Part shown: in pieces, positions 7,134-34,647 of the stretch
How the letters are laid out: each line of letters opens with the position of its first letter
How positions within the stretch are numbered: the stretch's first letter is position 1
Assembly: GCF_002197845.1 (NCBI RefSeq)
Contig: NZ_NIDE01000002.1
Span: 868,001-932,000 of the forward strand
Length of the DNA: 64,000 bases
Source of the DNA: Fimbriiglobus ruber
GTDB taxonomy: Bacteria > Planctomycetota > Planctomycetia > Gemmatales > Gemmataceae
Reading direction: 5' to 3'
Notes under the pieces: model-generated
Database searches by the model: none
What the model was told of the DNA's origin: nothing
What the model saw: only the letters and a program-made list of their open reading frames with translations
Translations under genes and position numbers: made by a program

Positions 7134-7247
7134 CGATACCCCTCTGCTGGTGCGCCTCGCACGGAAGACTCAGCCAATGCCCCGCGCGGGCCACGGTGCC
7201 GCACGGAGTCCGCGCGGGTTCCTATTAGGCGCACCGCCGTGTTCGGC

Positions 7248-20991: not shown

Positions 20992-21161
20992 GGGTTTCTC
21001 CGGTGGCGGCGGCCCCAGCCCGTACCGCACGGGGAGTGGTCGTGGCTGTCGGCAACATATTTCGCTCGGAGCCAGCCGAACAGTCTCATTCGCGTTCGCT
21101 CCCACCTTGGGTTCTCGCCTTGTGACGGCGAAGTACCGGCGCCGGATGCTTCGGAAACGAC

Positions 21162-21632
21162 TCACTCCCACTCGTCTTCTGACTCGCCCGATTCAACGTC
21201 TTGGCTGTCCCCTTGCCGGTGCCCGAAGAACACGCGGGGCACTTCGTACGGCAGTGACAAACCGGGCGGCCACGGTTGCTCGGATAACTCCAGCGTCCAA
21301 TGGAACCGGTAAGTGAGACCGACGATATCGTCCTCGCCCGACACCATCCCGGGGCTGAGGGTGTATCGCAGCTCTCTGACCGCGTCGGCCCCGGGCGAAA
21401 ATTCCTTGAACCGATGGCCGTCGGCCGGCGTCTCCAGGTAGTCCAACCGCAACACCCCGGCCGACGGCACTTCCCAACGGCACAGAATGTTCGCGTAGAT
21501 CGTCTGGCCGTAGGCGTAGACCAGCCGCCCGGAGCCGTTCGCGTGCAGTATGAGGAACCGCGTGCTGGAGTAGCTCCAAGGCGTCGCCGCCCAGACACCG
21601 CGCCCACCGTGAATCACCTCTGCGTCGCTCAC
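21162..21632 (-). CDS. Hypothetical protein
   Basis: 156 aa from a GTG start preceded by GGAGAGG; an ATG at 21746 would extend it into the preceding gene and is less likely. Rich in aromatic beta-strand-like segments ('WAATPWSYSSTRFLILHANG', 'LVYAYGQTIYANI', 'LTYRFHWTLEL') with an acidic tail. No family recognised. No signal peptide from this start. Confidence 0.55.
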   Translation of the reverse strand: MSDAEVIHGGRGVWAATPWSYSSTRFLILHANGSGRLVYAYGQTIYANILCRWEVPSAGVLRLDYLETPADGHRFKEFSPGADAVRELRYTLSPGMVSGEDDIVGLTYRFHWTLELSEQPWPPGLSLPYEVPRVFFGHRQGDSQDVESGESEDEWE

Positions 21633-22215: not shown

Positions 22216-23145
22216 CTACTCCATGTTTGCGATCCTCAACCGCTGCCATTCCTCCGGCTTACCCGAGCCGAGATCGAATTGCATCTCGACGGCGAAGGTG
22301 ACGCGGGTCACCCCGCCCCGCCTCGCTAAGGTGATGAATCGCGGCGGAGCGCTCGCCCGTGGCGGCCCGGCGTCTGGGGTGAAACAGGGGTTCGCGAGAC
22401 CGGACGCCGCTAGTTCGACGTATCCGAAGCGTTCCTCGCGCCGCACAACGCCCTGCCGGACCCGACTCAAGTCGAGGTATTGAACTTTCCACGAGCCGTC
22501 ATCGCCCCAGTGACAGCCCCAAACAAATCCGAAGTCGCCAGTGGGCCACTCCTGGTCGGCGTCCCAGTACTCGCTCCCGGGGATGACCGAGCCGTCGTGT
22601 AGATCCCACCAATCCGGCACGTAGAAGCCGGCCGGGCAAAACCCGCCCCCGCCCGCGTCGATCTCCTCGGCTATTACGCTACCTGTCCCGAGGTCCAACA
22701 CCGCCGTCCTCGTGTAGTCGCGGGACACCAGCGCGAACTCCTTGCCCCCCTGACGGAACGGCTCGAACGTTTGCAGCAGAGAGTAGTTTCGCTCGTATTC
22801 GCAGACCTTTTCCGGTCCGCCCGGTGAATCGGTCCGCCGAAATACTTCCACGATGGTCGAGGCCCACGCGCCCGGTTGGTTCGCCTTCGGTGTGTCTTTG
22901 ACGGTGTATTTGTCCCGCGGCTTCGGGCGCAAGGGGATCTCGAAGTCGGTTTCGACGACCACCTTTCGGATGACGAACCCGCGGTTGTGATACTGCTCCG
23001 CCCAGTTGTGCCCGTTCATTTCCCGAGCACGCAGCTTCGCGATCTCCGCTTCTGTCTCGGCGATGGAACGAAAGGCCCCGAAGTAGTAGTCCTTCTCGCG
23101 GCCGTCGTGGCGGGCGTAAATGCGGTAGACAACATCGTCGCGCAT
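22216..23145 (-). CDS. Hypothetical protein, cytosolic
   Basis: 309 aa without signal peptide or membrane segments. N-terminal ~60 residues ('DVVYRIYARHDGREKDYYFG', 'RSIAETEAEIAKLRAREM') form a separate alpha/beta segment; the remainder is beta-rich with many aromatics ('GFYVPDWWDLHDGS', 'GFVWGCHWGDDGSW'). It reads like a substrate- or partner-binding protein, but no family was recognised. Start supported by CACCGGAGGCGCG upstream, a ribosome-site context that recurs before other genes of this run. Confidence 0.6.
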   Translation of the reverse strand: MRDDVVYRIYARHDGREKDYYFGAFRSIAETEAEIAKLRAREMNGHNWAEQYHNRGFVIRKVVVETDFEIPLRPKPRDKYTVKDTPKANQPGAWASTIVEVFRRTDSPGGPEKVCEYERNYSLLQTFEPFRQGGKEFALVSRDYTRTAVLDLGTGSVIAEEIDAGGGGFCPAGFYVPDWWDLHDGSVIPGSEYWDADQEWPTGDFGFVWGCHWGDDGSWKVQYLDLSRVRQGVVRREERFGYVELAASGLANPCFTPDAGPPRASAPPRFITLARRGGVTRVTFAVEMQFDLGSGKPEEWQRLRIANME

Positions 23146-23224
23146 ACGACGCGCCTCCGGTGAACTTAACGGCCTAGATCAGCCGATGGCGCAACGCTTG
23201 TCAGCGGGACAGCCCGGAAACGAA

Positions 23225-23716
23225 TCACGCCGCGCCGTCTGCGGGGCCCGGCGGCCAAAACTGACGGCCGTTGTCCGGGTGCGCTACGCGGATCTGGAAT
23301 CTGGCATCGCGCACAAGTGACCCCAAGGCTTCCGTGACCTCCGGTCGCGCGATCGCCTCCGCGCAGGCTCGTAGAAACGTATCCACCGTCGCCAGCCGGC
23401 TGCCTTCATTATCGGCGGCTTGATAGGCCTCCGCCATCTGGCGGCCCAACTCACTCTCCGGATCCCACGACGACAGCCCGGCGGAGAAGTTGTAGTGGTG
23501 CCAGGCGGCTAACTCTCCCGGCTCCTGCAAGGCCGGGTCCGTGTCCAACTCGTCGGCGGTCAGGAGCGACAGCTCGACCGATCCGTGCCAGGGGAAGCAG
23601 CCGACATCGAAGGCGACGACGGGCTTACCCCGGAGCCGCCACGCGCTGTACTCCCGCAAGGCCGCGGCGACCGCTACGGCCAACCGAGGGATCCAGTCCT
23701 CCGGCACCACGCCCAT
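23225..23716 (-). CDS. Hypothetical protein
   Basis: 163 aa. Contains 'GKPVVAFDVGCFPWHGSVEL' and 'WHHYNFSAGLSSWDPESELG', with a helical C-terminal half. No family recognised; no signal peptide. Ends in Asp-Gly-Ala-Ala with the stop embedded in the shared GGCGTGATTCG junction. GGCGGAGGCGTGG upstream of ATG. Confidence 0.6.
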   Translation of the reverse strand: MGVVPEDWIPRLAVAVAAALREYSAWRLRGKPVVAFDVGCFPWHGSVELSLLTADELDTDPALQEPGELAAWHHYNFSAGLSSWDPESELGRQMAEAYQAADNEGSRLATVDTFLRACAEAIARPEVTEALGSLVRDARFQIRVAHPDNGRQFWPPGPADGAA

Positions 23717-23783
23717 CTGCACCACGCCTCCGCCGTCGACCGATGAAACTCCGCGCCCACGAACCGGAAGCCCCCGAACTGAT

Positions 23784-24173
23784 TCACGCCCCGGCGTCGG
23801 CTGCCGCGCGGGGTTCAGCTCGACGGCGCTCGACGGCCCGTAGCAAGTACCGCTCACCGGCCGCGGCGGCCGCATCTAGTACCGCCTGTGGACACTCGGA
23901 GAGGTATACGATCGCAGACATGATTGACCCGCCCATGCCCGGGTCGGCATCGGTCGCGCCCAATTCGTACAGTGCGGCTGCGAGGTCGGCGGATAGTGGC
24001 CGGCGGGCGGCAAGGAACTCCTGGAATGCCCACCACCGATAGTGCTCAGTGTTGGTATCGTCGCCCTTGTCCCATTCGGCCCGAGCCTTCTCCATGAACG
24101 CCTGATCCACGACCCCGAGGTCGAACCACGCCGGGGTGAACCCGAGCCGTTCTCCGAAGTCTGGTGCCGCCAT
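23784..24173 (-). CDS. Hypothetical protein, possible immunity-like
   Basis: 129 aa, mostly helical. 'HYRWWAFQEFLAARRPLSAD', 'ALYELGATDADPGMGGSIM' and 'YLSECPQAVLDAAAAAG' suggest two or three short helical repeats. Size and context, in a run that includes a SUKH-type protein, are compatible with an immunity protein, but I recognise no named family. Stop lies in the shared 3' junction sequence (GGGGCGTGA variant). Confidence 0.5.
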   Translation of the reverse strand: MAAPDFGERLGFTPAWFDLGVVDQAFMEKARAEWDKGDDTNTEHYRWWAFQEFLAARRPLSADLAAALYELGATDADPGMGGSIMSAIVYLSECPQAVLDAAAAAGERYLLRAVERRRAEPRAAADAGA

Positions 24174-24248
24174 CCGAACGCCCTCCGTCGCCGAATTAAA
24201 AGCTCACCGGCCTGCCCACGCGACGAGCGATGAATCTCCGAAAGCAAA

Positions 24249-24968
24249 TCACGCTCTACCGCCCGGTGTGGCGGCGGCCTGTGCCGTCCGCGCGCGGGGG
24301 CCGTACCAGTAATCCAGCCCCGCGCGCCGGCCGAGTGCCAGGCGAACGCCGACGCGCAACAAACTCAGCGCGGAGTTCGCCCGGAGCTTGCGGCCCGACG
24401 TGATCACGAATTCCCGGAGGATGACGAACCGGCCTTGTCGCTTGAGCCGTCGACCGAACGCCACCTCTTCCGACCAGAAAAGCGTCTCGTCGAACCCGCC
24501 CGCCGCCGAGTACGCTTGTCTCGTGCAGAACAAGAAACAGCCCGGTGCCAGTTTGAACAGCGGGAGGATTACCGGCAACACCATCCGCTCCAGGATCGTG
24601 GCGTACAACGGCACCGGTCCGTCGAACCGGGCCGCGGAACCACCGCCGACCGCGCCGCCCCGCAACGAGCGGACGGCGGCGCGAACCGCCCGCGCCGTCA
24701 CCATCGTGTCCGCGTCGACGAAAAAGAGCAGGTCGCCGGCCGCCACGCGGGCACCGGCGTTGCGCGTCGCCGCGATCTGACGGAAGGTGGCGGCGACGAC
24801 CCGGGCGCCGTGCTCGCGCGCGATCGCACCGGTGCGGTCGGTCGAGCTGTCGTCTACGACGATGACCTCGTAGGCCTCGCCTGCCGCGCGTGCGGACTCG
24901 TGTACCGCCGCGAGCGTGCGGCCGATCAGATCGGCTTCGTTGTGCGCCGGGATCACGAACGAAATCAT
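24249..24968 (-). CDS. Family 2 glycosyltransferase
   Basis: 239 aa. N-terminus 'MISFVIPAHNEADLIGRTL', 'YEVIVVDDSSTDRTGAIARE' and the DxD-type metal site in 'DLLFFVDADTMVT' define a GT-A fold family 2 enzyme. An internal 'GGFDETLFWSEEVAFGRRLK' is the usual acceptor-side ED motif. It probably transfers a sugar from a nucleotide-sugar donor at the cytosolic membrane face; no membrane anchor visible. ATG at 24968 follows GGGGAGGG. Sits among small unrelated genes and shares their 3' junction sequence. Confidence 0.88.
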   Translation of the reverse strand: MISFVIPAHNEADLIGRTLAAVHESARAAGEAYEVIVVDDSSTDRTGAIAREHGARVVAATFRQIAATRNAGARVAAGDLLFFVDADTMVTARAVRAAVRSLRGGAVGGGSAARFDGPVPLYATILERMVLPVILPLFKLAPGCFLFCTRQAYSAAGGFDETLFWSEEVAFGRRLKRQGRFVILREFVITSGRKLRANSALSLLRVGVRLALGRRAGLDYWYGPRARTAQAAATPGGRA

Positions 24969-25012
24969 CCCACGGCCCTCCCCGCCGCCGGCCGACAAAG
25001 CTCCGAAGCGAA

Positions 25013-25519
25013 TCACGGTCCGCCGGCTCCGGCGGCGTTCGGTTTGGCCCGCTGTTTGTGGAGTAAGATTGGTATGACCAGTTTTGTTTCCCCCGGACCA
25101 ACCCGCCGCACCTGTCGCCACGACTCCGTCAGGAAGGCCCACTCTGTTAGCTCATAGCCCACCGCTCCCGCCCGATAACACCAGTGTGGCAGATGTACCA
25201 CGTAAGTGTTCGTGAAGTATAAGCCACTCTGGGCACCGGAGCACGTGGTCCACGGACACTCCCGGCGAGCGATCCCACTGGTATCGTTGACGAGTAGGAA
25301 TTCGCGTTCGGCATCCTCCGTGTTGGGGTGGTCGTTCGACTGGATCTCGATTTCCGCTCCTCGCACGGGCTCGCCGGAAACGGCATCGGTTACTACGAAC
25401 GTAACGTCCAAGTCGGTATGACCCACCCAGTAGAACATGTACGAGCGGTCGCAACCGATTACCAGCAGCGCAATCACGGCCGCGGCGATCAGGAGCCTCT
25501 TCCGCCAAGGTCGTGCCAT
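25013..25519 (-). CDS. Lipoprotein, carboxypeptidase-regulatory-like
   Basis: 168 aa. Signal peptide with lipobox VIGC (Cys at about 23). The following 'LDVTFVVTDAVSGEPVRGAE' is a transthyretin-like strand pattern. GGAGGT 5 nt before ATG. Probably anchored on the outside of the cytoplasmic or outer membrane. Ends '...GAGGP' with the stop in a variant of the shared junction. Confidence 0.7.
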   Translation of the reverse strand: MARPWRKRLLIAAAVIALLVIGCDRSYMFYWVGHTDLDVTFVVTDAVSGEPVRGAEIEIQSNDHPNTEDAEREFLLVNDTSGIARRECPWTTCSGAQSGLYFTNTYVVHLPHWCYRAGAVGYELTEWAFLTESWRQVRRVGPGETKLVIPILLHKQRAKPNAAGAGGP

Positions 25520-25562
25520 TCGTACCTCCGGGTCGAACGTCAGAGCGCCACACCTCACGGAC

Positions 25563-26081
25563 TCATGGCGGCGCGAGCCAGCGGTCCAACAGAGGTTTCA
25601 CGTCGGCCAACGTCGGGTCCTGTTTCGTGCGGAGGTTCTCGTCCGGACCCACGTAGCTGACGTTTAGGCTGTTTAGTCGGTAGTGAGCCACGCGCGACGT
25701 CTCGTAGTTGAGCGTGATGTGCTCGGTCCGCGTGCCGTCGGCGTCCGTGTACTGCCGTGGTCCGTCGACGGTCGCCTGCTCGTGAATCCACTTCAGTTGC
25801 CCGTTTTGACGGCGGAACGCGATCGTCCGGCTCCGGCCGGTGTTGTAAATGTGCAGCATCGCGTCGTAAGCCGACCCGTTCGACCGCTCGACCTCGACCT
25901 TGGCCGTCGCGGGTAGCGGCGGGAGCCCGAGCGGACCGCGGTCGATCGTGTGCATGTCGCCGAACTCCGCGAGCCGCGGGTCCGTGAGGGCGATGGCCGG
26001 ATACGACCCCGGGGCACCGCAGCCGGTCAGCACGGCACACGCCGCGAGTACGACGACCGACGCGCAATGACGCATCAACAT
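25563..26081 (-). CDS. Lipoprotein of unknown function
   Basis: 172 aa. Lipobox LTGC after a short hydrophobic stretch ('VVVLAACAVLTGCGAPG'). The body includes 'DAMLHIYNTGRSRTIAFRRQ' and 'EQATVDGPRQYTDADGTRTE', beta-rich and unassigned. ATG at 26081 follows CACGGAGGCGCG, the same ribosome-site context used elsewhere in this run. Confidence 0.65.
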   Translation of the reverse strand: MLMRHCASVVVLAACAVLTGCGAPGSYPAIALTDPRLAEFGDMHTIDRGPLGLPPLPATAKVEVERSNGSAYDAMLHIYNTGRSRTIAFRRQNGQLKWIHEQATVDGPRQYTDADGTRTEHITLNYETSRVAHYRLNSLNVSYVGPDENLRTKQDPTLADVKPLLDRWLAPP

Positions 26082-26288
26082 CTGGTCGCGCCTCCGTGGC
26101 TGAAGGGTGTTACTCGGCGGCAGCCAGCCGTCAGTGAATTTGCAGTCTCTGGAGCGATTCACGCCCCGCCGTCTGGTGCGACGCCGGGTTCGGCCAACCT
26201 TGGTACTTACCAGCCCACAGAATCTCCGCGATCTCAGACTTTCTGGCGACCTCGGCCGCCGTCTGTTGCGGCGGATCGTTCGGGCGCG

Positions 26289-26843
26289 TTAGCCGCTTGT
26301 AGGACGGAACGACCGCTCGAATGGTCCGGCCGGAAACACGCCGACCGAAAGCTGGCCAGTCAACCACAACCGGACAAAGCCTGCGGCCGTCCTCTGGAAA
26401 ACTTCAAATCGGAAGCCCCGCCCTTCCTGGACCACGACTGGCCAGTGATCCGCCGGCCCGTGTGTGTACCAATACAGTGTGTTGCCGTTATCCGTAACTG
26501 CCCACGGGAACAATCCCGACGTGTCCGGATATAGTGAAAATGGAACGCCTTGGTCTCGCCACATACCGCTCGACCGTTCTGCTTCAAGAATAGCCTTAGC
26601 CCGTTTGAGGAAATTGCCGTACTCGCTTACCGCAAAGGGAGTAAGGGGATACAGGAAATCGCCGAAACTTCCGGACCCATAACTATCAATTAGACACTTG
26701 TAATCACTTGGCAAACGTATGCCAAGTTCGCGCTCCACGCGAGTCCATTCGGCAGCCGGACCGATCTCGGCTGTGGTCGCAGGAAACGGAACGATCAATT
26801 CCAGTGCCGCAACATCACGGTGTAAGAGCGGCTTGCGTGGCAT
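26289..26843 (-). CDS. SUKH/SMI1-KNR4 family protein
   Basis: 184 aa. The SUKH pattern is recognisable: 'WTRVERELGIRLPSDYKCLI' then 'SYGSGSFGDFLYPLTPF', and further on 'FPWAVTDNGNTLYWYTHG' and 'WPVVVQEGRG'. SUKH proteins are the commonest immunity proteins against contact-dependent or polymorphic nuclease toxins. None of its neighbours is a recognisable toxin. Between its stop and 26163 a frame continues that reads partly like protein and ends in the shared junction motif, suggesting a rearranged end. Confidence 0.8.
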   Translation of the reverse strand: MPRKPLLHRDVAALELIVPFPATTAEIGPAAEWTRVERELGIRLPSDYKCLIDSYGSGSFGDFLYPLTPFAVSEYGNFLKRAKAILEAERSSGMWRDQGVPFSLYPDTSGLFPWAVTDNGNTLYWYTHGPADHWPVVVQEGRGFRFEVFQRTAAGFVRLWLTGQLSVGVFPAGPFERSFRPTSG

Positions 26844-26904
26844 GTTCCTTCGCCTTATCCTTGGGGGCGAACGCCCCGGTCCGATCACTCAGTCACCCGG
26901 CCGC

Positions 26905-27306
26905 TTATTCCTCACCGAGGGCCTCCCGTAGCAGGCGGACATCCTCGGGCGTCAGCCGTTGGATGATCTGTTCCCACTCCCCATCCCGACCGGTCTGGTG
27001 ATTCAGTACGCAGGTGCCGTCGCGCAGCAGGTTGAGGGTAAACCCGCTGCCCACCACCCGCGTGCCCGGGGCGTATGTGGTGTACGACGTCGACCACCCC
27101 GTGCCGTGCGCCGCGAGCCAGTCGGCGAGGGCTCGCTCCCGGTCCGTGCCTGGCTCGATCGGCCGCGTGGTGCTGGGCCGACCCGACGCGTAGACTTCGA
27201 CCCGGTACGGCCCACCGAGCACGGCCGTGTTGACGGCCGGCCCCTTGGAGCTACACCCCGGGACTATGGTCGCAACGACCGCAAGAGGAAGTAACGCACC
27301 TCGCAT
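26905..27306 (-). CDS. Small lipoprotein of unknown function
   Basis: 133 aa. Signal peptide with lipobox 'VPGC' (Cys18). The mature part contains 'GPYRVEVYASGRPSTTRPIE' and a C-terminal helix 'RLTPEDVRLLREALGEE'. AAGGAG 9 nt before ATG. Its start follows the shared junction element of the upstream gene. Confidence 0.65.
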   Translation of the reverse strand: MRGALLPLAVVATIVPGCSSKGPAVNTAVLGGPYRVEVYASGRPSTTRPIEPGTDRERALADWLAAHGTGWSTSYTTYAPGTRVVGSGFTLNLLRDGTCVLNHQTGRDGEWEQIIQRLTPEDVRLLREALGEE

Positions 27307-27371
27307 CGGACGTACTCCTTTGCCGAACGATAACAACTTCACAGTGGCGACTTCGACATCCCAGGAACGAA

Positions 27372-27893
27372 TCACGCCCCGCCGTCGGGCGCCGTTGTGC
27401 CGGGCTCGGACTGCCTTGTGTGCCGGAAGCGCCACGATTCCAGCAGCTCCGCCAGGGCCACGGGCCGGTACCCGTAGGTGTCCGGCAAGATGCGGTCGAA
27501 CCCACCAAACCTCTGGTTGATGCGGCGGACCCGCTCGTCGCCCGGGTACTCACGGGCGAACACGAACACCACCCACCGGTGGGACGCGAACTCGGACACC
27601 CCGAACCAGGCCACGTCGTCCCACCGGAAGGAATACCGCCGGAGAACGGTGCCGTACTCGAACCCGGTCGGCGACAGCCGGAGCCACATCCGCGGGGCGG
27701 TCAGTACCCAGCACCCGAACCCGGTCAGCAGTGCCGCCAGTCCCAGGTACAGCCACGGCAACCCGGTCCCGCGGTAAAGCATCACGTCGCCGAGCGCTGC
27801 GAGCGCCGCCGCCGAGCCGAACAACCAGCCGAACCGGGACAAGCCGGGCCGCAACACGAGTTCACTCGGCTCCTCCAACCGCGCCTCCGTCAC
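27372..27893 (-). CDS. Two-TM PH-like domain protein (STM3941-like)
   Basis: 173 aa from a GTG start. Two membrane segments (about 24-40 and 46-64) are followed by a small PH-like domain: 'LSPTGFEYGTVLRRYSFRW' leads to 'DDVAWFGVSEF', then 'INQRFGGFDRILPDTYG' and 'ALAELLESWR', the pattern of STM3941-type proteins. Membrane protein of unknown function. Ends Asp-Gly-Gly-Ala-stop in the shared junction sequence. Confidence 0.7.
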   Translation of the reverse strand: MTEARLEEPSELVLRPGLSRFGWLFGSAAALAALGDVMLYRGTGLPWLYLGLAALLTGFGCWVLTAPRMWLRLSPTGFEYGTVLRRYSFRWDDVAWFGVSEFASHRWVVFVFAREYPGDERVRRINQRFGGFDRILPDTYGYRPVALAELLESWRFRHTRQSEPGTTAPDGGA

Positions 27894-27951
27894 CGAACGA
27901 TAAAGCCCCGCCGCGGTGGACCCACCCGCGCCGGGTAGTCGAAGAAACGAA

Positions 27952-28557
27952 TCACGCCCCGCCGTCGGCGGCCGCGCCGGGTTCGGCCGGCTTGGCGGCC
28001 GCGTGCTGCACGCCCCGGATGAATTCGTACACCATGCGGGAATCGGCTGCCAAATCCAGCGACACTAGCCCGCCCGAGTTGTTCGTCGGCCACCCAGCCC
28101 CCGTATACCACCACGAAGGGACCGTACCGAACCCGATTAGCCCGCCGCCGTCTCGGTAGACTGTAAGCTGGACCTCGGCCACCTGCCGCAGAACGAGTGA
28201 GTGAACCAACGTGCGACCGGACAACGCAGTCACGACCACCACCCGCTCGGATGTAACCCCGTAGCACGTCCCCCGTCGCCATTGCGCATCCACCCAGAAT
28301 CGACCGACCGACAAGTACACGCCGGCAACCACGAACAGCGACGTGAAGGGCACGCCGATCACGGCCCCGGGGGCAAAATCCTGACGGGTAAATATCGACA
28401 CCAGCGCGAACACCGCGACTGCCGTCCAGCACAGCGCGAACGGGACGAGGTACAGGTCGCCCGCCCGGAATCGCAAGCCACGCGGCGGGCGGCCGGACCA
28501 CAACAGCCGTTCGCCCGGGGAGAGTTCTCGGCCGATCACGTCTTCGGGCGATTCCAT
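27952..28557 (-). CDS. Membrane protein with bacterial PH-like domain
   Basis: 201 aa. N-terminal 'LSPGERLLWSGRPPRGLRFR' followed by two membrane segments (about 37-57 and 65-85) and a beta-rich domain beginning 'CYGVTSERVVVVTALSGRTL' is the usual layout of bacterial PH (bPH2-like) proteins. GAGGAG before ATG. Also ends Asp-Gly-Gly-Ala-stop, like the next gene, although the two proteins are otherwise only loosely similar. An AT-rich stretch (28620-28680) upstream may hold the promoter of the run. Confidence 0.7.
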   Translation of the reverse strand: MESPEDVIGRELSPGERLLWSGRPPRGLRFRAGDLYLVPFALCWTAVAVFALVSIFTRQDFAPGAVIGVPFTSLFVVAGVYLSVGRFWVDAQWRRGTCYGVTSERVVVVTALSGRTLVHSLVLRQVAEVQLTVYRDGGGLIGFGTVPSWWYTGAGWPTNNSGGLVSLDLAADSRMVYEFIRGVQHAAAKPAEPGAAADGGA

Positions 28558-28723
28558 CCGGTCTCCTCTCTGGGGCCGAACATGGCGTTTGCTCGCGCCG
28601 GCGCTATCTATTGCGGATTCATAACCCGACTCAATAATCTTACAATAATTTATATTATATTGACTTATTTTAATTAGTTAACCAATGCCCGCGTCGCTCT
28701 CACTCACTTCCCGACCCGCCGCG

Positions 28724-31502: not shown

Positions 31503-31707
31503 ATCCACGCGGCACGCACTTCGACTCAATCTCGTCTGACGCCTGGTTAGTCTGCGGTTAGCCGCACCTCTTGTCCCCGCGCCGGTCGCCCGGCGTCGGT
31601 CTCGCTGTTTCTACTGTAGGGCGGCCGTCCCGAGGCCCCCGCATGCCCGCCGCCCGCCCCCCGATCGACGCCCAGGCGACCGACGCCCGCGGGTTCCTCA
31701 TCCCCCC

Positions 31708-31719
31708 GTTCGTTCGTTC
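31708..31719 (+). repeat. Tetranucleotide tract (GTTC)3 at a frameshift
   Basis: Three perfect GTTC units lie where a frame starting at ATG 31643 (MPAARPPIDAQATDARGF...) stops resembling the portal N-terminus, and the frame of the large downstream gene takes over ('SALYNLFSRTYSYRWDEAV'). Adding exactly one unit would bring the two into frame. Confidence 0.6.
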
Positions 31720-31803
31720 TCCGCCCTCTACAACCTGTTCTCGCGGACGTACTCGTACCGGTGGGACGAGGCCGTCCGGGCCGGCCGCCGGAACGCCCAG
31801 GCC

Positions 31804-34647
31804 ATGCGCCGGGACGCCTACCTGGCGGCCCTCGAACAGGAGCGCGTCCTCCCTCTCACCCGGTGGCCGTGGGAGGTCGAGGCCGACCCCGACGACCCCG
31901 ATCTCGCCAACCCGAAGGACCCGTACTCCGACGACCGCGAGCGGGTCCGCCGACTGTTGCAAGCGTGCTGCCGCCGGACCCCCAGTCTGTCGCAACTTGT
32001 GACCGCCCTCGGGTCGGCCGTCTTCTTCGGGCGGTCCGGTGCTCAACTGGCGTGGACGCAGGACACGGTTGCGGGCGAGCCCCGGTGGGTGGTGCGGGCG
32101 TGGGAACCGGTCCACGGGGACGCCATCCAGTACGACTGGGACGGCACCCCGGGCATCACCATCCGGCCCGGCGACACCGGGGCGTTCCCCCCGGAGGACG
32201 TCAAACTGTGGGACGGCGGGACGCTGCTCGCGATGCTCCGCCGGCCGCACCTCCGCCAGCGGTTCATTCTGCATGCGCACAAGCGGGAGGCGGCCGACTA
32301 CTGGCAGCCCGAAATGGCCGGGCGGTCCCACGGTGTCGGTCTCCGGGACTACGTGTACTGGGCGTGGTGGCTGCGGGACGAGATGCTGTCGTGGCTGACC
32401 GACTACATGGAGAAGGTCGGCAGCATGGGTCTGCTGCTCTTCTACTACGAGGACGGCAACCCGGCGGCCGAAGCGGCGGCCAAGCAGGCGGCCGCCGACG
32501 CCCGGGGCAAGAGCGCCCTCGCGGTCCCGGTGCCGCGGGGGCGGGACAAGGACGCGGCCAAGGTGGAAGTCATCGCGGCCCAGACGGCGGGCGCCCAGTT
32601 CCTGGTCGACATGGTCGACCGGTACTTCGAGCGGCACATCGAGCGGCTGTACGTCGGCCAGTCGTTATCCGCTGGGACCGAGGGCGGCGGGCTCGGCGGG
32701 TCCGGGGTGGCGGCCCTGCACGCGGACACCAAGTTCAACCTCCTCGCGTGGGACGCCGACAACCTGGCCGAGACCCTCACCCGGGATCTCGTCGGCGTCC
32801 TCCAGCGCCTCAACTTCCGGGACACCCGATGGCGGTACCGGTGGGCGTTCCGGCTACCCGACCCGGACGCCAAGGACAAGCTCGATGCGCTGGTGAAGGC
32901 GGCCAATCTCCCGGGCGCCAAGCTGACGTTCAAGGCGGACGACGTGCGGGCGTTAGTCGGGCTGACCAAGCCCGGCCCGGGCGACGAGATCGTCGGCGGC
33001 GGCGAGCCCCAGCGCGCGCTCGCCGGCGACCCGGTGGGATACGCGCAGGATTCGCCCCACGCCCCGCGGGGCGGGATCGACCTGAAGGGGAAGCACTTCC
33101 TCGGCGGCCAGTTCGTTCCCAAGGGCGGTGGGTCGGCCGTATCGGTCGCGACTCCATACGAGCCGAAGGATGACATCCCCGTTTACCGCTACCACCCTCT
33201 ACCGAACGGTATGGCACAGATCGTCATGCCGGACGGTTCGAGTCGGACGATGAGATTGGCTCAATTTGAGGGGACGCTCAAGGAGATCCACGGCGACAAA
33301 TACCGGCTCGAAAAGATCGAGCGGCACGATGTCGAAGGGCTGCGAAAGCAGTTCCCCCAGGCGACCCCGTACCTCCCGAAGACGCCCAAGGAGGAAGGCC
33401 AGGAGATGCGGGAGGCCGCGGCCAAGCGGCCGGACGGATGGAAGCTGCTGTCGGCGACCGTCTTCGCGGGCCCGCTCGCGACCAAGCAGGTATCCCCGGA
33501 CGAAAGGGTCATCATTTACCGTGACCCGGACGGCGGCACGAGGACCGTCAACATCGTGCGGGTGAATTACCACGAGCAGTTGGCACAGACTCAGAAAATG
33601 TACACCGACCTGTCGAACAGTCGGTTGGCCCAGGACCCCGTCGAGTCGGAGCGCCTGCAGCGGGAGGCGGCCGCGAAGGCGGCCCGCGCCGCGAAGGACT
33701 TGGCCGACAACCCGCCGAAATACCTCTACATCCCGATTGTTATCAACACCGGCCGCCCGGGCAACCCGGTCGAATCCGCCATCCGGTTCTACGAAACGAG
33801 TCACGCGGAGGGCTGGGCGGCCTGGGCGCTCAAGCAGAAGTGGGTGCCCGTGTGGGGAACGGCCACCCACGTTGACCAGGCGATTCAGCTGTGGGACAAA
33901 GATCGCTTCGAAGCCCATCGTGAGTTGATGTTAGCCGCGCATTCGTTCGCGGAAGACGTGTTGTTCGTTTACGGGGCGAAAGGGTTAACGGCGGTTGCCC
34001 GGGGCCGAGTCGTCGGCAGCATGCCGCTGAAGTCGGTCTCGTCGTGGGAAGAGGCGGCCTCTCTCGCCCACGGCAGCGCCGAGGCGCGGATCCTGTCGGG
34101 CCTGGACCTGATGGCCGGCAACGGCGCGGTCGGGCGGACGGTACTCGACAAGCGTGCGATCGGGCACCTCGCCCGGGGGATCGAAGCCGACAGCGGGAAC
34201 CGCGTAACGGTCAAGCTGGCGTCGGAAGCTCCGGCCGAGGTTCAACCTTACTTGACCGGGAAAAAGCCGGCGTTTCATGTCCCGCGCGACGGCGGCAAGC
34301 CCGTCATATACATGCACGAGGGGAACTCGCTCTCGGCGTTCTGGCACGAATATTTTCACTACCGAAATTGGTACGACCGTGCCGTTTCGGGTATAGTGCG
34401 GGAACCGTATCTCGTACGGTCGCCGATCCTGCGCGAAACCGACGTACTGGAGCGGTTCTTGGATCACAATACGATTTGGCGGTTGATGACAAAGAACGAA
34501 CGTCGAGTGCAGATCGAGTCGTTACGGAATCATTTGAACGACGCGGCGGCGTTAGGGGAACTTACGGAGGCGGAGCGCGAGGCGGCGGCCGCGATGATGA
34601 GGCGAGCCGAGCTTAGGATGAACGACGTATCAATTACGGGAGAGTAA
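31804..34647 (+). CDS. Phage portal protein (DUF935/Mu gp29-like) fused to C-terminal zincin toxin-like domain
   Basis: 947 aa from ATG 31804; homologous portal sequence extends upstream ('LFSRTYSYRWDEAV' in frame), and a further N-terminus from 31643 is out of frame at (GTTC)3. Residues 1-~400 match DUF935 portals ('AMRRDAYLAALEQERVLPL', 'GLRDYVYWAWWLRDEML', 'NFRDTRWRYRWAFRLPDPD'). From ~415 comes a junction motif 'GKHFLGGQFVPKGGG', then a charged region, a pretoxin-like hydrophobic segment ('WVPVWGTATHVDQAIQLWD') and a C-terminal domain with HEYFH at 848-852, a zinc-metallopeptidase HEXXH. GC falls towards the 3' end. Two small genes follow at once. Known logic of polymorphic toxins suggests the last ~150 residues are the toxin. 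Peptidase activity is inferred only. Confidence 0.75.
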   Translation: MRRDAYLAALEQERVLPLTRWPWEVEADPDDPDLANPKDPYSDDRERVRRLLQACCRRTPSLSQLVTALGSAVFFGRSGAQLAWTQDTVAGEPRWVVRAWEPVHGDAIQYDWDGTPGITIRPGDTGAFPPEDVKLWDGGTLLAMLRRPHLRQRFILHAHKREAADYWQPEMAGRSHGVGLRDYVYWAWWLRDEMLSWLTDYMEKVGSMGLLLFYYEDGNPAAEAAAKQAAADARGKSALAVPVPRGRDKDAAKVEVIAAQTAGAQFLVDMVDRYFERHIERLYVGQSLSAGTEGGGLGGSGVAALHADTKFNLLAWDADNLAETLTRDLVGVLQRLNFRDTRWRYRWAFRLPDPDAKDKLDALVKAANLPGAKLTFKADDVRALVGLTKPGPGDEIVGGGEPQRALAGDPVGYAQDSPHAPRGGIDLKGKHFLGGQFVPKGGGSAVSVATPYEPKDDIPVYRYHPLPNGMAQIVMPDGSSRTMRLAQFEGTLKEIHGDKYRLEKIERHDVEGLRKQFPQATPYLPKTPKEEGQEMREAAAKRPDGWKLLSATVFAGPLATKQVSPDERVIIYRDPDGGTRTVNIVRVNYHEQLAQTQKMYTDLSNSRLAQDPVESERLQREAAAKAARAAKDLADNPPKYLYIPIVINTGRPGNPVESAIRFYETSHAEGWAAWALKQKWVPVWGTATHVDQAIQLWDKDRFEAHRELMLAAHSFAEDVLFVYGAKGLTAVARGRVVGSMPLKSVSSWEEAASLAHGSAEARILSGLDLMAGNGAVGRTVLDKRAIGHLARGIEADSGNRVTVKLASEAPAEVQPYLTGKKPAFHVPRDGGKPVIYMHEGNSLSAFWHEYFHYRNWYDRAVSGIVREPYLVRSPILRETDVLERFLDHNTIWRLMTKNERRVQIESLRNHLNDAAALGELTEAEREAAAAMMRRAELRMNDVSITGE

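Follow-up and report, generated by a model that had tools for sequence, protein, structure and literature searches.

An old, partly eroded gene-cassette array without an integrase, very probably of integron origin, in Fimbriiglobus ruber

We analysed a 64-kb window (C2:868001-932000, on contig C2) of the 12.36-Mb genome of the planctomycete Fimbriiglobus ruber (genome handle G000), in which a run of minus-strand genes with unlike bodies shares similar 3' junctions. The run is very probably an old, partly eroded integron gene-cassette array whose junctions are degenerate attC sites, that is, a CALIN (cluster of attC sites lacking an integron integrase; such clusters are proposed to be degraded integrons, PMC9024848). 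The minus strand carries seven related junctions, with the final base of their TGA at 27952, 27372, 26159, 25013, 24249, 23784 and 23225. Six of them end a same-strand open reading frame (ORF), and the seventh (26159) stands behind an apparent gene remnant, ~130 bases beyond the stop of a SUKH gene. An earlier reading made from the DNA letters (the sequence-only reading) had placed seven copies of a ~20-bp sequence at minus-strand gene ends between 23217 and 28557. The seven junctions stand, but the copy at 26159 is not at a gene end, the element is ~95 bp long rather than 20 bp, and the array extends lower, at least to 22216. The features are listed below, with E-values from a sequence profile (hidden Markov model, HMM) and a covariance model (CM), both described further on.

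28581..28700 (-): AT-rich leader ahead of cassette 1; a possible promoter
28575..28581 (-): R'-type core GTTCGGC shortly ahead of cassette 1, the left boundary of the array; identified by sequence
27952..28557 (-): cassette 1 (c1), PH-like membrane protein of 201 amino acids; ends with AEPGAAADGGA and a stop within attC
27892..27987 (-): attC j1, in which each of the four boxes can be recognised; 59.7 bits, CM E 1.3e-12
27372..27893 (-): cassette 2 (ORF limits), membrane protein with a weak bacterial-PH match (E 0.075); ends in attC
27322..27408 (-): attC remnant j2, HMM E 6.1e-6; R' GTTCGGC retained, no full-length covariance-model match
26905..27306 (-): cassette 3, small protein that by eye begins like a lipoprotein; no recognisable attC behind it
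26289..26843 (-): cassette 4, SUKH-family protein (SUKH_6 E 1.7e-9)
26256..26282 (-): possible remnant of an attC 5' half immediately behind the SUKH stop, short of significance (HMM E 0.79)
26099..26194 (-): attC remnant j3 (HMM E 6e-12, CM E 0.003), preceded by a gene remnant
25563..26081 (-): cassette c6, lipoprotein-like (by eye); attC apparently lost except for an R'-like core
25532..25538 (-): R'-like remnant GTTCGAC, recognised from its sequence, ahead of a ribosome site
25013..25519 (-): cassette c7, lipoprotein-like (by eye); ends within attC (..AAGAGGP and a stop)
24987..25048 (-): attC remnant j4, HMM E 0.023, CM E 0.028
24249..24968 (-): cassette c8, family-2 glycosyltransferase; ends within attC
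24190..24278 (-): attC remnant j5, weak; HMM E 0.67, CM E 0.15
23784..24173 (-): cassette c9, 129-amino-acid protein, body homologous to a protein of relative G012; tail AEPRAAADAGA and a stop from attC
23735..23819 (-): attC remnant j6, HMM E 6.9e-6, CM E 0.24
23225..23722 (-): cassette c10, 165-amino-acid protein; ends with ADGAA and a stop within attC
23164..23260 (-): attC remnant j7, HMM E 4.9e-5, CM E 1.1
22216..23145 (-): probable last cassette c11, 309 amino acids; j7 precedes it, no attC behind it; full-length homolog in G012
21113..21197 (-): possible attC remnant at the end of an ORF at 21162; HMM E 0.54, not significant

Array proteins that can be given a family name are not related to one another: one is a family-2 glycosyltransferase, one belongs to SUKH, and two are membrane proteins whose PH-type/PuhB matches are weak, the family call of c1 resting on a weak PuhB match below the cut-off. 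Cassette 2 may truly start at a TTG near 27880. Six of the nine array proteins scanned had no Pfam match even at E 0.1. The sequence-only reading was right about the SUKH protein; its suggestion of an immunity-gene array found no support, with one SUKH gene among the nine scanned, although the six without a Pfam match may still belong to immunity families. CGGAGGCG, which it had seen recurring before the next starts, is exact before four starts by direct reading and is a ribosome site immediately after the R' box.

With up to three mismatches, GGCGGGGCGTGATTCG matched the window at nine places, compared with 3.02 +/- 1.78 in shuffled sequences, none of 100 of which reached nine. Six of these nine matches fall inside the array; the junction at 24249 is too diverged for this search and was located by alignment. 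When GACGGCGGGGCGTGATTCGTTTC was searched with three mismatches, eight places were found in the genome, four in the array and the others on contigs C17, C14 (two) and C1, and the reversed pattern was found nowhere. The flanks of these places revealed a ~95-bp element with the layout GGCCGAACCC..GCTGCAGCAG..GACGGCGGGGC..loop..CTGAGC..GTTCGGC.

The genome harbors an integron integrase gene with an unbroken frame at C14:1281594-1282535 (TIGR02249, 447 bits, cut-off 265), and C14 is the only contig with a TIGR02249 match above the cut-off. A second integron integrase, on C18, is split into two pieces ~1.6 kb apart (L021 9246-11828). Textbook attC sites with GCCGAAC, GCTGCAGCAG, CTGCTGAGC and GTTCGGC adjoin both integrases (loci L020, G000:C14:1272000-1291000, and L021, G000:C18:66000-85000). 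None of the 17 TIGR02249 matches in the genome (E <= 1e-5) lies inside the window, which therefore does not hold a complete integron, with intI and attI adjoining the array.

Just downstream of both intI stops lie putative attI sites (L020 9381-9620, L021 8851-9300) with short shared stretches and GTTCGGC; intI is oriented like the cassettes, and the strongest match between both putative attI regions is mostly the intI end itself. An IS110-family insertion sequence (IS) element (PF01548, PF02371; one copy scanned) is found beside the integrase (L020 2496-9160, L021 7040-7124), and four attC are truncated at the 5' end at an identical point, each starting with the same end of this element. Insertion sequences that target attC are known to sit in this manner.

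An HMM trained on four junction copies outside the window found six array junctions (E 6.4e-12, 7.9e-9, 6.1e-6, 6.9e-6, 4.9e-5 and 0.023), followed by 21197 (0.54), j5 (0.67), 26282 (0.79) and 46644, which is outside the array (1.1); the best match on the reversed window, taken as a control, had E 1.5. Covariance models, whose E-values are approximate, were built from six intI-adjacent attC (R1) and from 51 attC of other genomes (R2). R1 matched 27892-27987 (j1) with 32.3 bits (E 5e-6 in 314 kb), and R2 scored the same site at 59.7 bits (E 1.3e-12 within the window, 2.5e-10 genome-wide); the R2 match on j3 (26099-26194, E 0.003) was marginal. In j1, R'', L'' with its extra base, the stem, L' and R' are all recognisable, in order, which overturns the earlier statement that the array is "without attC features". 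The junction copies outside the window on C14 and C17 were confirmed as attC by both R1 and R2. Recombinational shuffling at shared ends, integron-like in outcome, had been proposed for this run; as the ends are attC and the genome has an integron integrase, the proposal holds more literally than it was made.

Several results weigh against this reading of the array. The remaining R2 scores (0.028, 0.15, 0.24 and 1.1) are within the chance range (best chance match 0.021), j2 had no full-length R2 match in the window search, and j5 was weak in every test. A structure-free profile of three intI-adjacent attC matched no window site; because a profile from intI-adjacent sites only misses the window copies, the link runs via the structural models and the copies on C14 and C17. 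Neither R1 nor R2 confirmed the copy at C1:858013 (L023), which has the same core, as attC. The R' box GTTCGGC differs at one of seven positions from the classical core-site consensus GTTRRRY (PMC2674596), and the intI-adjacent attC and attI-like sites of the genome carry the same one-position departure. Finally, no attC (E <= 1) was found beside the homologs of c1, c9 and c11, the three cassettes tested (14 loci). When single junctions were folded as DNA, no signal emerged on either strand of the two sites tried (z -0.60 to 0.17), and Rfam at the gathering threshold had no match in the intI locus L020, the sole sequence searched. A 16-mer core with at most one mismatch occurs at C17:770807, C1:399133 and C14:419694, three of the four places found outside the array at this stringency; no significant attC match lies near them, and they were taken as chance.

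By R2 at E <= 0.01, the genome contains at least 70 attC sites in 23 clusters (gap <= 10 kb), a count that is a lower bound because 150 of 13,205 first-look candidates were scored. One cluster of 11 attC (R2, E <= 0.01), on the plus strand at C2:935537-945033, starts 3.5 kb past the window end. For the sequence-only reading, a junction found at gene ends genome-wide regardless of context would have been a refutation; copies do exist in other parts of the genome, but mostly in further cassette clusters. An element so dispersed in the genome and in relatives could be a REP- or MITE-like repeat (repetitive extragenic palindrome or miniature inverted-repeat transposable element) that inserts at gene ends by chance, with no integron involved. 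We regard this as very improbable, since the full element carries the attC boxes and a covarying attC fold, adjoins integron integrases and, in a relative, delimits a duplicated ORF unit. In the 51 relatives' sites, the attC fold had 104 double-changed cells, compared with 37.1 +/- 3.8 in shuffled alignments (0 of 500), and 96.9% of the cells were paired. The conserved imperfect hairpin is clear in these sites; in the window it is partly broken in j1 and largely lost elsewhere.

The duplicated unit was found in relative G034, where a 387-bp ORF-attC block occurs twice (C1:2.208M and C1:4.58M) with 99.5% identity. The block begins at GTTCGGC, its flanks diverge right after its own GTTCGGC, and its ORF ends with AEPGAAADGGA and a stop. 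The evidence for mobile units cut at G^TT thus comes from sequence and from this relative, not from the window cassettes. Sites of attC type (E <= 1e-4) were present in 40 of 59 genomes, the own genome included, and outside the order in two of 15, with one match each; TIGR02249 matches above the cut-off were present in 16 of the 59, fewer than the attC-bearing genomes. An exact core scan of genome contigs, with two positions degenerate beyond R, returned 15 stretches, ten titled Fimbriiglobus, Limnoglobus, Gemmata or Gemmataceae and five others (two Planctomycetota, one Kuenenia and two "Bacterium" from one isolate). Matches to c1 were found in 10 and to c9 in four of the 59 genomes, with the own genome counted in both, and neither was found in two listed congeners (86-87% complete). 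Gene order, for which a comparison had also been proposed, is not fixed: in G012, the homologs of c9 and c11 are on separate contigs.

Frame 0 of attC reads AEPGAAADGGA and then a stop, which is located in the loop and in phase with R''. The earlier observation that proteins end alike though their bodies differ is borne out in this form, as the tails are attC sequence. The shared protein ends (DGGA etc.) would then be translated attC, the ORFs being presumably translated. Homologs of c1 cease matching at residue 187 of 201, where the 11-residue tail begins at ~191, and those of c9 at residue 120 of 129, where it begins at ~119; in these two array protein bodies, the homolog match ends within 4 residues of the attC tail start. 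Rates of nonsynonymous (dN) and synonymous (dS) change were 0.24 and 2.06 for c9, 0.16 and 1.05 for c11, and 0.52 and 2.20 for c1, giving dN/dS of ~0.11 to 0.24 in the three pairs, with two of the three dS values above 2 and near saturation. The protein bodies thus appear to be under purifying selection. Such bodies with like tails might also come from paralogs that diverged in all but a C-terminal coding end, kept alike by gene conversion or by selection on the tail. We find this barely conceivable: the bodies are unrelated wherever families can be named, the similarity between junctions runs beyond the stop codon (TGATTCGTTTC) and on to R', copy 26159 lies outside any gene, and the homologs of c1 and c9 without attC are also without the tail.

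The phase of the loop stop was examined in 92 attC collected from 20 array regions of relatives with a regular expression that ignores the loop, which makes the sample loop-blind. A frame-0 stop before the 3' stem was present in 70 of the 92, compared with a mean of 29.5 and a maximum of 43 in 500 loop shuffles, whereas stops numbered 23 (shuffled 30.1) in frame 1 and 30 (37.6) in frame 2. With the window-type core removed, 59 of 80 sites had the frame-0 stop (shuffled 24.9, maximum 36). A coding frame, judged by third-position GC content, entered attC in 34 of 88 cases, 31 in frame 0, none in frame 1 and three in frame 2; all 31 frame-0 coding frames terminated at the attC stop, and 54 of the 88 sites had no entering coding frame. 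Earlier frame samples were biased, their loci having been fetched with a pattern containing TGA. In these, 28 of 32 cases were in frame 0 and four in frame 1, one of the four being the G034 387-bp unit, whose ORF ends in frame 0; 27 of 58 ORFs in relatives and eight of 23 in the own genome ended inside attC, and 15 of 24 attC of the own genome had a frame-0 stop (mean 8.4, maximum 15 in 200 shuffles). As attC sites are related by descent, none of these counts represents independent events.

R'' was exactly GCCGAAC, which leaves the frame open, in 120 of 144 sites. These were hand-picked from 219 rows by excluding reverse-strand duplicates, L137, sites cut by contig ends and rows below 39.9 bits; a box filter that excludes ACCTGA-type L'' leaves 82 of them. 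The classical R'' is RYYYAAC, in which T as the fourth base would read TAA in the same frame. We consider the case evenly poised that attC in these planctomycetes is a selected dual-function element, being a recombination hairpin and, in its 5' half, a ready-made 3' coding end. The R'' GCCGAAC (versus GCCTAAC, with TAA) would keep the frame open and the loop stop would close it, so that captured stop-less ORFs end with a small Ala/Gly-rich tail and do not fuse to the next cassette. If true, this would lower the barrier from gene fragment to cassette and could help attC 5' halves to outlast the remaining site in dead arrays. Selection for the in-phase stop, if real, would make attC sites coding ends as well as recombination sites, which is relevant to how genes become cassettes.

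The cassette array itself is of an already known kind; the built-in coding end of attC appears to be new. No report of an in-phase loop stop or of a shared attC-encoded tail ending cassette proteins was found in the literature searched, including passages of PMC8876359, PMC2674596, PMC9176274 and PMC10963911, with a coverage that leaves out most subscription journals and makes this weak evidence of absence. An att site supplies a stop to ORF-11 at attI1 of class 1 integrons (TAG in the core site), and ribosomes are able to translate short ORFs that lie inside attC, aiding the next cassette (PMC8876359). Those are separate peptides that couple translation, whereas here the loop stop ends the cassette protein itself. 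In fused cassettes, an ORF and attC sequence can become one coding region upon partial attC loss, and the ORF can fuse to that of the next cassette (PMC4670013); here attC itself closes the frame. The ACID annotation rule allows an ORF-attC overlap of <=15 bp (PMC2674596) and would miss or shorten attC-tailed proteins, which overlap attC by at least 36 bp.

The seven window sites matched the family consensus with a mean identity of 0.73 in the 5' half, 0.88 in the stop and first loop part, and 0.59 in the 3' half. The same three parts gave 0.95, 0.92 and 0.92 in 23 relatives' sites, 0.90, 0.93 and 0.73 in four other copies of the own genome, and 0.45, 0.44 and 0.45 (standard deviation (sd) 0.22 to 0.24) in random window pieces. 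Judged by this consensus, the attC 3' halves are decayed. It would be attractive to suppose that the 5' half was retained because it is coding, but j3, which is a non-coding copy, is just as well preserved in its 5' half (0.85). The unbroken IntI frame and the recognisably kept boxes of j1 would also fit a CALIN that is still active, mobilisable in trans by the genome's IntI today. This is unlikely, as several stem pairs of j1 are non-standard in the R2 alignment and the 3' half identity of 0.59 compares with 0.92 in relatives and 0.45 (sd 0.24) at random; the array is probably inactive at present.

The reading as a decayed cassette array is carried by computed evidence, namely attC homology, the attC fold in relatives, the integrase gene in the genome, the duplicated ORF-attC unit and the in-phase stop. 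Each array unit would once have been a cassette consisting of a ribosome site, an ORF and attC. An integron integrase acting in trans, perhaps the one still present elsewhere in the genome or a lost relative of that integrase, would have joined cassettes at G^TT of GTTCGGC, which would place unrelated ORFs between near-identical sites. ORFs without their own stop would run into attC and share the tail (AEPGAAADGGA and variants) because the attC 5' half is open until the loop stop. After activity at the locus ended, the 3' halves would have diverged more than the 5' halves.

Like CALINs (PMC9024848), the array consists of several attC-bounded ORFs in one orientation with no integrase nearby; unlike them, its attC sites are mostly too decayed for the structural model, and their 5' halves act as 3' ends of coding regions. 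In Xanthomonas, CALINs have been described at several loci distant from the integrase, and attG integration outside integrons is mentioned as well (PMC12444791). Planctomycete integrons and attC, including an attC model for the phylum, have been described (PMC8352920, PMC2426708), in passages that contain neither this planctomycete family nor an in-phase loop stop or shared tail. What looked like a new shuffling system is thus very probably a recognisable integron remnant, with attC scattered over the genome and most relatives.

The lowest-GC 100 bp found in the window (28601-28700, 34%) lies within the AT-rich leader. Comparison of the leader (28581-28700) with the attI-like regions beside the integrases and the C14 leader gave only ~10-base matches. 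AT-rich leaders precede both the window array and the C14:874k array (L019 ~7160-7245), with no clear sequence similarity. Elsewhere in the window, a stretch of ~1.5 kb at 31619-33150 has six further copies in the genome with 83-90% identity.

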